Shown one piece after another: positions 62,518 to 64,000 of a stretch of 64,000 nt of DNA. Source of the DNA: Nitrosarchaeum sp. (GTDB lineage Archaea > Thermoproteota > Nitrososphaeria > Nitrososphaerales > Nitrosopumilaceae); assembly GCF_025699065.1 (NCBI RefSeq), contig NZ_JAILWF010000003.1, positions 124,001 to 188,000 of the forward strand. Direction: 5' to 3'. The first letter of the stretch is position 1, and each line of letters begins with the position of its first letter. The position numbers and the translations under genes were made by a program. The notes below the pieces were generated by a model. That model had not been told where the DNA came from. It did not search any database and saw only the letters and a program-made list of their open reading frames with translations.

Positions 62518-62599
62518 GCCAGGTTAGCCAAGTGGAACGGCGGCCGTCTCGAAAACGGCTACGCGCAAGCGTGCAGGGGTTCGAATCCCTTACCTGGCG
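62518..62599 (+). tRNA. tRNA-Ser (anticodon CGA)
   Basis: An 82-base tRNA. Acceptor GCCAGGT (62518-62524) pairs with ACCTGGC (62592-62598), with discriminator G at 62599. The anticodon stem-loop has CTCGAAA in the loop, anticodon CGA, decoding UCG as serine. The long variable arm CGCGCAAGCG-like is as expected for Ser. The T-loop GGTTCGAATCC is intact. No intron, and CCA is not encoded. A T-rich tract (62607-62616) follows and may end the transcript. Its 3' end is nearly repeated at 63847. Confidence 0.96.
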
Positions 62600-62605
62600 T
62601 ACTCA
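62589..62605 (+). repeat. Left copy of tRNA-Ser 3'-end repeat (att-like)
   Basis: CTTACCTGGCGTACTCA spans the last eleven bases of the tRNA and six beyond. It matches 63847-63863 at 16 of 17 positions. Integrative elements often leave such a copy when they recombine into a tRNA 3' end. Confidence 0.5.
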
Positions 62606-62727
62606 AGTTTTTCTTTAAATAGTTTGTACCTAAATTTCTTAAAAAATTAAAAACTCTGGTAGGGCGTTGACCTTTACCACTTACACTCTTACTGATAAAT
62701 TAGAAAAAATGGTTTTTGTTTTTTATT

Positions 62728-62859
62728 TTATGTGTTTGGTACATTGCCATCGACATCAAGCAAATTCCCACATGTTTGACATTCCCATTTTTCATCAGAC
62801 ATTAATTGATTGACGTTTGTTACTCTTGATGCGTTACAGACTTTACATTTGGTTGACAT
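62728..62859 (-). CDS. Zinc-ribbon microprotein (43 residues)
   Basis: Reads MSTKCKVCNASRV...KWECQTCGNLLDV, two CxxC knuckles of one zinc ribbon. The ATG at 62859 overlaps the last stop of the preceding C2H2 frame (TAATG). It is last in a run of overlapping reverse-strand microgenes and seems to be the partner copy of the ribbon at 62953-63093. Confidence 0.65.
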   Translation of the reverse strand: MSTKCKVCNASRVTNVNQLMSDEKWECQTCGNLLDVDGNVPNT

Positions 62860-62963
62860 TATTTTGATTTTACTGGGTGTGTTTTTTCGTGCTCTCATAC
62901 TTGCTCAAAAGTATACGAAGTTCCTTCCCACTTGAAATTGCACTCTTTACAGCTATATCTCAT
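62859..62963 (-). pseudogene. C2H2 zinc-finger microgene with an in-frame TGA
   Basis: From ATG at 62963 the frame reads MRYSCKECNFKWEGTSYTFEQV, then TGA (62895-62897), then EHEKTHPVKSK and TAA. Its intact neighbour copy (63093-63215) has CKDCKF.WEG..TFEHVLTHEKTH, so the TGA replaces Leu (TTA) just before the two zinc-binding His. A single T-to-G change would explain it. The broken finger loses both His. It overlaps the ribbon gene before it and the one after it. Confidence 0.65.
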
Positions 62964-63093
62964 TTTTCTCTTCACTATGTTGTTTTTTCCATACATTACA
63001 TGCTGGACAACGACTAATTGTTTTGGATAATATTTTTTTTGAGAATACATTGCCACAGTTTTCACATGTTTTCAAATCATTTAGAGTAACCAT
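62953..63093 (-). CDS. Zinc-ribbon microprotein (46 residues)
   Basis: Reads MVTLNDLKTCENCGNVFSKK...SRCPACNVWKKQ, a two-knuckle zinc ribbon with a basic body. The ATG (63093) overlaps the stop of the C2H2 gene as TAATG. Its 3' end overlaps the ATG of the next C2H2 copy. Confidence 0.68.
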   Translation of the reverse strand: MVTLNDLKTCENCGNVFSKKILSKTISRCPACNVWKKQHSEEKNEI

Positions 63094-63215
63094 TATGATG
63101 TTGCTTCCATTGTTTTTTTGTTTTTCAAATGTGTTTTTTCATGGGTTAAAACATGTTCAAAAGTATCTATCCATCCTTCCCAATGAAATTTACAATCTTT
63201 GCAGTTATACTTCAA
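63093..63215 (-). CDS. Intact C2H2 zinc-finger microprotein (40 residues)
   Basis: Reads KYNCKDCKFHWEGWIDTFEHV then LTHEKTH: Cys-x2-Cys and His-x3-His of a classical single finger, then a basic tail. Start TTG at 63215 overlaps the TGA of the upstream 32-residue gene. Likely expressed by translational coupling in the microgene operon. Confidence 0.65.
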   Translation of the reverse strand: MKYNCKDCKFHWEGWIDTFEHVLTHEKTHLKNKKTMEATS

Positions 63216-63310
63216 TTTTGTTTTGTCTCTTTAGATTCTTTGAATGCGTTTACGTCATTAGATGTCTTTTTTTGGTTTCGTTGCAATTTTGCAAATAGTT
63301 TTTTTAACAT
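63212..63310 (-). CDS. First gene of the zinc-microgene operon, 32-residue basic peptide
   Basis: Reads MLKKLFAKLQRNQKKTSNDV and continues to KETKQN. Basic, amphipathic N-terminus. ATG at 63310 lies 25 bases after a TATA box (63332-63338), so it probably heads a leaderless transcript carrying all the following reverse-strand microgenes. Function unknown. Confidence 0.5.
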   Translation of the reverse strand: MLKKLFAKLQRNQKKTSNDVNAFKESKETKQN

Positions 63311-63331
63311 ACACACATAGGTCATATCTTA

Positions 63332-63338
63332 CATATAA
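63332..63338 (-). promoter_or_regulatory. TATA box of the zinc-microgene operon
   Basis: TTATATG on the reverse strand, about 25 bases before the ATG at 63310. Spacing fits the leaderless pattern seen elsewhere in the window. Confidence 0.5.
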
Positions 63339-63504
63339 GGCAAGGATTATGACAAAATGGATTTTCTTTCGTAGCTGAGTAGTCAATTCAGTCCTTCTTT
63401 TCAGATATGCAAACTCACACCACTACGATACTAGTAATATGTTGATTTTCTTTATAGGACTTCCTCAGAGTGGGTTAATTAAGACGAAATGACGTATGGA
63501 TGTT

Positions 63505-63603
63505 ATGAATACCATCTCATTCCATTGGCAAAAAACATGTATTGATTGCAAGAGAATACATTGCCAAAAGGGCTGTAACTGTGATTGTCATTGGAAACCC
63601 TAG
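63505..63603 (+). CDS. Cys/His-rich microprotein (32 residues)
   Basis: Reads MNTISFHWQKTCIDCKRIHC and continues QKGCNCDCHWKP: six Cys and three His, enough for two metal ions. A weak TATA (TTAATTAAG) lies near 63476-63484. It has a different frame from, and overlaps, a longer but motif-poor reading of the next gene. Confidence 0.55.
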   Translation: MNTISFHWQKTCIDCKRIHCQKGCNCDCHWKP

Positions 63604-63610
63604 ATGTATT

Positions 63611-63730
63611 TTGACATATCCGATTATAACTCAAGACACATGCCCACATGACGCAAAAGTAAAGATGGCAGGATATTCTGGAATGTATGAATGTACAAGA
63701 TGTCATAAATTTATTCGTGATGATAAGTAA
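63611..63730 (+). CDS. Small Cys/His zinc-binding protein (39 residues)
   Basis: From TTG 63611: TYPIITQDTCPHDAKVKMAG then MYECTRCHKFIRDD. CxH near the start and CxxCH near the end make one likely zinc site. The frame is open upstream to 63542, but that part overlaps the Cys-rich microgene, so I prefer the short form. Seven bases separate them. Confidence 0.5.
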   Translation: MTYPIITQDTCPHDAKVKMAGYSGMYECTRCHKFIRDDK

Positions 63731-63846
63731 AATTACAAATATTTTCCTACATTCTTTTGTTATTATGTATTCAATTCATAATTCTTAGTTTCTAATTATT
63801 TTCATGCCTATGTTTTTGTAGGGTGTCAATTCTTTTTACCTTAACT

Positions 63847-63863
63847 CTTACCTGGCGGACTCA
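63847..63863 (+). repeat. Right copy of tRNA-Ser 3'-end repeat (att-like)
   Basis: CTTACCTGGCGGACTCA, differing from 62589-62605 at one base. Just before it, 63819-63850 also loosely resembles 62659-62692 (TAGGG-GT...TTACC...ACTCTTAC). Between the two tRNA-end copies lie all the zinc microgenes. Confidence 0.5.
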
Positions 63864-63873
63864 TACTTTCCTG

Positions 63874-64000
63874 CTAAGATTTTTTCATTTTTTGAAATAG
63901 TTTAAACACTGTTTTTCCTATTTTGACTTGTTTTATAATTTTCAAACTAACTTTCAATATCTTAAATCCTACAAAAACAGGCATAAGTACAAGCATAATT
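63874..64000 (-). CDS. C-terminal part of a basic, hydrophobic protein, cut by window edge
   Basis: The reverse frame ends at TAG 63874 and reads VFVGFKILKVSLKIIKQVKI...FQKMKKS, a basic amphipathic helix set. An in-frame ATG lies at 63996, so it could be a 40-residue peptide or the tail of a longer protein beyond base 64000. No family can be named. Confidence 0.35.
   Translation of the reverse strand, partial: IMLVLMPVFVGFKILKVSLKIIKQVKIGKTVFKLFQKMKKS

Follow-up and report, generated by a model that had tools for sequence, protein, structure and literature searches.

Islands devoid of an integrase and bounded by ssrA repeats have been described in Dehalococcoides and proposed to be cis-mobilizable elements, accretion having been put forward as a hypothesis as well (PMC3146451). 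In Methylopumilus, an additive flexible genomic island located at a tRNA-Lys gene ranges in size from 330 bp to 42 kb (PMC10872708). For thaumarchaea, a survey of integrated elements (PMC6563490) reports att sites with a median length of 17 bp and down to 8 bp, known arrays of elements, XerC/D-type integrases and Zn-ribbon proteins among the commonest genes; the elements were recognised mainly by integrases, signature genes and ORFan-rich loci.

The window, i.e. the whole stretch of 64,000 nucleotides that was analysed, from an ammonia-oxidising archaeon, contains a segment which is bounded, like the Dehalococcoides islands (PMC3146451), by the 3' end of a gene and a copy of it, has no integration module, lies in tandem within a hotspot, adjacent to integrase-bearing islands, and carries a motif upstream of the repeat. 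Unlike the segment, those islands are bacterial, are located at ssrA (tmRNA), depend on a serine recombinase and have 20-bp repeats. Two attachment sites, as in cis-mobilizable elements, are represented by the tRNA tail and its copy, with a right arm at the matching distance and a weak left arm, and integrase and transfer genes of its own are absent. Serial insertions, repeated tRNA tails and content varying among relatives are found at the site, as in additive flexible genomic islands; the Methylopumilus island similarly shows serial tRNA-tail copies and mostly unknown genes, while being bacterial, located at another tRNA and delimited by 20-nt repeats (PMC10872708). Thaumarchaeal elements also target tRNA 3' ends; the smallest cryptic one in the survey, at 2.6 kb, includes an integrase (PMC6563490), whereas neither an integrase nor a signature gene is contained in the segment, which has the short tRNA 3'-end repeat and a degree of empty-site support. 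Tycheposons, as far as they are summarized in PMC10872708, likewise bring cargo to tRNA genes and remodel islands, but use a tyrosine recombinase and measure 4-200 kb; the segment is without a recombinase. A literature search combining Nitrosarchaeum, genomic islands and tRNA returned no paper, and the thaumarchaeal survey (PMC6563490) may list an element at this tRNA. On the best reading of these comparisons, the segment would resemble cis-mobilizable elements or additive islands, and may best be filed as an archaeal variant of the integrase-less or additive kind known from bacteria.

The bracketed segment and its genes

The tRNA-Ser(CGA) gene occupies positions 62518-62599 on the forward strand of the window, whose genome is indicated as G000, and ends at 62599. 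The sequence CTTACCTGGCG-T-ACTCA, at 62589-62605, is repeated as CTTACCTGGCG-G-ACTCA at 63847-63863 on the same strand, forming an attR-like copy of the tRNA end. The exact core of the repeat corresponds to the last 11 nt of the tRNA, and the match extends to 16 of 17 positions when the flank is included (CTTACCTGGCGTACTCA). By using the 16-mer pattern and allowing up to two mismatches, only these two sites were found in the 1.6-Mb assembly, while the reversed pattern, used as a control, gave 0 matches. The original prediction of a 1.27-kb segment bracketed by the tRNA-Ser 3' end and a 16/17 copy is thus confirmed, and no second such pair exists in the genome. When the other 38 tRNAs of the genome were scanned, none was followed within 8 kb by an exact 11-nt copy of its tail, and the one match with a single mismatch was chance-like; other tRNA genes of this genome were therefore rejected as hotspots.

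The tRNA is adjoined by a remnant of 67 bp (62600-62666) ending in CTCTGGTAGGGCG and showing about 86% identity to the corresponding sequence of genome G002. Its last 13 nt (62654-62666), 8 of which match the tail, may represent a decayed tail copy. The left-end sequence TTGACCTTTACCACTTACACTCTTACT follows on the forward strand at 62667-62693, i.e. at +68 from the tRNA, behind this remnant common to G002; the same type of sequence is found directly behind the tRNA in G004, G009 and G016. A zinc-finger block (62740-63807), conserved in G001, G014 and G008, has a phylogeny discordant with its surroundings. To its right, on the forward strand, lie the right-arm motif GGGTGTCAATT (63821-63831), starting 37 nt before the end of the tail copy, and a conserved right-end sequence, TTCTTTTTACCTTAACTCTTACCTGGCG (63830-63857), common to G002, G014 and G005 and weaker in G016. 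Just outside, the 3' part of the gene for the membrane protein F141 (63874-64000, reverse strand) follows the species pattern.

Within the bracket, seven tiny ORFs, 22-62 aa in size, were found, six of them Cys/His-rich, in agreement with the seven very small genes, at least six with Cys/His zinc patterns, noticed originally. Five are located on the reverse strand: F80, a 43-aa C2C2 zinc-ribbon-like protein (62728-62859); F23a, a C2H2 microprotein (62862-62963), interrupted by an in-frame TGA in G000 and intact in relatives; F109, a 46-aa C2C2 microprotein (62953-63093); F23b, a 40-aa C2H2 microprotein (63093-63215); and F88, a conserved 37-aa ORF with no Cys/His pattern (63212-63325). The remaining two, on the forward strand, are ORFf, a Cys-rich ORF of 35 aa (about 32-35) with a conserved ATG at 63505 (63496-63603), and F139, a C/H microprotein conserved from 63629 (63542-63730). 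For six of the seven, F23a being left out, pN/pS was evaluated over four genomes: values ranged from 0.09 to 0.24 for F80, F109, F88, ORFf and the F139 core, and reached 0.50 for F23b. Five of the seven ORFs, namely F80, F109, F88, ORFf and the F139 core, thus look to be under purifying selection. Pfam and NCBIfam searches gave no name above cut-off for the microproteins, the best weak matches being zinc ribbons, and comparison of F80 with PDB gave weak rubredoxin matches. No integrase and no transfer genes were revealed by the ORF list and the Pfam scan of the segment, which bears out the stated lack of an integrase. Neither the zinc-finger family nor the integrase had a confirmed relative in IMG/VR.

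A single strong copy of F80 is present in 17 of 18 congeners. It is located in the tRNA-Ser island of six genomes (G000, G001, G014, G008, G004, G007) and, in the remaining ones, elsewhere or on contigs without the tRNA; the same genes that the original prediction had placed in the bracket, where they are indeed found in G000, also sit outside such a bracket in relatives. In G009, F80 adjoins the genes for TBP and TFB, within a flank common to several other congeners. The cluster of microproteins beside these two genes in G009 includes a zinc-ribbon protein and others. F80 is missing from the orthologous TBP locus in G000, G001 and G014; in G004 and G007, the neighbouring microprotein genes are present there and F80 is absent. 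G000, G001 and G014 have five TBP-like matches each, an expanded set for an archaeon. From its distribution, the zinc-finger module looks host-like and seems to change place.

The insertion site and the zinc-finger block in related genomes

The locus was compared over 20 oriented tRNA-Ser loci, most relatives being represented by draft or metagenome assemblies. Upstream of the tRNA, most members of the genus retain fen1 and other genes. On the downstream side, the conserved genes F32/F34 lie between 3 nt and 14.2 kb from the tRNA: in G015 and G017, F32 begins 3 nt behind it, while in G000 the conserved flank is reached again, with F34, only after 14.2 kb. In G014, a 2.1-kb insert ends in CTCTTTTTACCTAAACTCTTATCTGGTG and is followed, at +2125, by the sequence found directly behind the tRNA of G008 (79% identity over 77 nt between the G008 junction and the G014 flank, E 5e-12). 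Both are single-contig genomes, and G008 represents an empty site for the 2.1-kb insert of G014. A second, degenerate tail copy adjoins F141 in G014, where G000 has an intact one; two tail copies imply at least two insertions, which occurred serially. In general, tail copies are degenerate in sister genomes at the position where the right end of G000 is well preserved, and no recognised copy is found to the right of the block in G008, the closest genome within the block, or in G004.

Inserts with other cargo are found at the same site. The right end of G000 is also that of a 2.7-kb integrase-less insert in G002, whose genes encode a GNAT acetyltransferase and an MFS transporter. In G054, which belongs to another genus, a 3.4-kb insert, with no integrase seen, spans +1 to +3429 of tRNA-Ser(CGA), and its right flank is common to a 30-kb element of G038, a genome of the same genus as G054; this suggests that a single site is used by forms with and without an integrase. 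The cargo of the G054 insert includes an HxlR-like regulator, a methyltransferase-like protein and others. These loci show that the 3' end of tRNA-Ser(CGA) is a hotspot of serial insertion, which repeatedly takes up foreign DNA. Genomes lacking an insert, expected from the original prediction, were found in G015 and G017, and in G008 relative to G014, while the exact empty site of the G000 cassette, with the tRNA joined directly to the F141 flank, was absent from the genomes compared.

The region of G000 from +141 to +1208 aligns with G001, G014 and G008. In the core flanks, G000, G001 and G014 are 93-94% identical, and G008 is at 79-81%; within the block, the best match to G000 is G008 (90.7%), and G001 and G014 are 93.8% identical to each other. 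Informative sites in the block are distributed 38:7:7 in favour of G000+G008 versus G001+G014, with a bootstrap of 1000/1000, and the synonymous divergence between G000 and G008, which amounts to 0.55-0.65 in flanking core genes and to 0.59 in F141, is as low as 0.23 within the block. Genes outside both tRNA ends, including F141, keep the species pattern. The switch from the discordant to the species pattern occurs, on the right, between 63807 and 63880, across the tail copy and, on the left, between the tRNA and 62740. Since the block groups G000 with G008 while outside genes keep the species pattern, it was exchanged horizontally between lineages, with breakpoints near the att-like ends. The discordance demonstrates horizontal exchange and alone is no proof of site-specific movement; as G008 has no tail copy at the end of the block, the exchange could have occurred by homologous recombination.

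Ends of the segment and integrase-bearing elements

A 25-nt right-end pattern was searched in 18 congeners, allowing up to three mismatches, and was found only in G000, G002, G014, G016 and G005, once in each, with 0 control matches. All matches are located in the tRNA-Ser island, except for that of G005, which lies on a 4.8-kb contig without the tRNA. In IMG/VR, the right-end motif gave three exact matches, all located inside phage genes and discarded as due to chance.

Larger elements with the same kind of ends, the existence of which had been left as a question by the original prediction, were found. In G038, a 419-aa PF00589 integrase starts 43 nt behind tRNA-Ser(CGA); in other members of the family and order, homologues are located behind Ser, Met, Phe, Glu and Tyr tRNAs. 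Four full integrase-bearing elements with tail copies, of 30.0, 13.2, 15.6 and 38.7 kb, were identified at Ser and Met tRNAs, among them the 30.0-kb element of G038 at tRNA-Ser(CGA) and the 13.2-kb element of G049 at an intron-bearing Ser(CGA) gene. An N-terminal remnant of the tRNA-targeting integrase was also observed in G020, belonging to another genus, at about +49 to +255 of tRNA-Ser(CGA).

The right arm of these elements, G[GA]GTRTCAAAC, starts 37 nt before the tail end in the G049 Ser element and in the Met elements of G061 and G014, and is displaced by about 2 nt from this position in G038. It approximates the reverse complement of a left-arm motif, GTTTAATACCC, located about +12 behind the tRNA. 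At the fixed 37-nt position, the right arm was detected in G000 (p=4e-4) and G002 (p=4e-4), and scored above every background site in G007; the scoring was trained on four sequences, so that p values are indicative only. In the integrase-less inserts of G014 (2.1 kb), G016 and G054 the right arm is weak or unrecognisable, and in G005 it is one base out of register. The left-arm motif is strong only in G020, G038 and G065, from other genera, moderate in G054 and G002 and not significant in G000; it was accordingly discarded as a general mark of the tRNA-Ser flanks of the genus.

Elsewhere in its genome (C1:20207-21442, reverse strand), G000 encodes an open 411-aa homologue, a tyrosine integrase of the tRNA-targeting family, 49% identical to that of G038. 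It follows a protein gene's 3' end, not a tRNA, and a left-arm-like sequence, CTTTATACCC, is found upstream. That it might act on the tRNA-Ser cassette is speculation.

Origin of the segment

The segment is probably an att-bounded, integrase-less cassette inserted at the 3' end of tRNA-Ser(CGA), a hotspot of serial insertion, with an estimated probability of roughly 0.72. Tyrosine-recombinase elements of the family would integrate by recombination between the tRNA gene and a short copy of its tail, so that the left side keeps a complete tRNA and the right side has a tail copy along with the right-arm motif. Newer insertions would enter beside the tRNA and displace older ones outward, while old tail copies decay. 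The bounded interval carries only a host-like zinc-finger microprotein module, exchanged between lineages, and a related integrase may have moved the cassette, either acting in trans or through accretion with a larger element, its own integrase having presumably been lost by internal deletion; mobilisation in trans and active movement of the cassette are both inferred. Insertion at the tRNA 3' end, as originally proposed, is strengthened by the empty-site genomes, the serial tail copies, the right-arm motif common with integrase-bearing elements and the limitation of the phylogenetic discordance to the bracketed block. Speaking against a cassette are the absence of its exact empty site from the genomes compared, the lack of a tail copy at the end of the block in G008, the non-significant left-arm motif of G000 and the weak, unrecognisable or displaced right arm of several other inserts. 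In addition, its left end is not clean, the 67-bp remnant lying between the tRNA and the left-end sequence, and its genes include nothing able to replicate it.

The tail copy might otherwise be the right end of an old full-size element with its interior deleted, into which zinc-finger host genes entered by homologous recombination, never being mobile as a unit with these ends. Such a history, considered unlikely, would fit the behaviour of F80 as a host gene family, single-copy in 17 of 18 congeners and found at the TBP/TFB locus of G009 and several others, as well as the occurrence of the block in G008 and G004 without a recognised tail copy on the right. The decayed integrase N-terminus of G020 indicates that decay does happen at this tRNA, and one zinc-finger gene of G000, F23a, has an in-frame stop. 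However, the discordance stops near both ends of the bracket, whereas homologous recombination needs matching sequence on either side, and the right end is well preserved in G000, where sister genomes have degenerate tail copies at the same position. A decayed element and a passively moved cassette, both suggested originally, are each compatible with these data and do not exclude each other, because the ends resemble the integrase type, the cargo is host-like and exchanged and the integrase is absent.

A core repeat of only 11 nt could also arise without integration, the tRNA 3' end having been duplicated locally and the genes in between being unrelated. This option of the original prediction is rejected as highly improbable, since the right-end sequence and the arm motif recur with other cargo and in integrase-bearing elements, and empty sites exist. 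Even less credible is an insertion of the casposon type, with the target site duplicated at the tRNA end: thaumarchaeal casposons do make target-site duplications, mainly at ef-2 (PMC6563490), but the tiny ORFs leave no room for cas1 or polB, no terminal inverted repeat was found at the two ends, and tyrosine integrases lie behind these tRNAs in relatives. A Cas1-type integrase, PolB and terminal inverted repeats being all missing from the segment, the casposon was discarded.

Beyond the cassette itself, integrases encoded elsewhere could collect and shuffle host-like modules at tRNA-Ser(CGA) by means of short arm-plus-tail ends, the conserved single-copy zinc-finger module relocating between the TBP/TFB locus and the tRNA site; this wider proposal is tentative and judged improbable. 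The module alternates in place, lying near TBP/TFB genes in some relatives, which poses a question about its role that can be tested. Surveys of archaeal mobile DNA rely on integrases and signature genes, so that integrase-less cassettes are easily overlooked. If cassettes with shared ends were moved in trans, gene exchange in ammonia-oxidising archaea would exceed the estimates of such surveys and, were this true, the arm motif would offer a handle for counting it.
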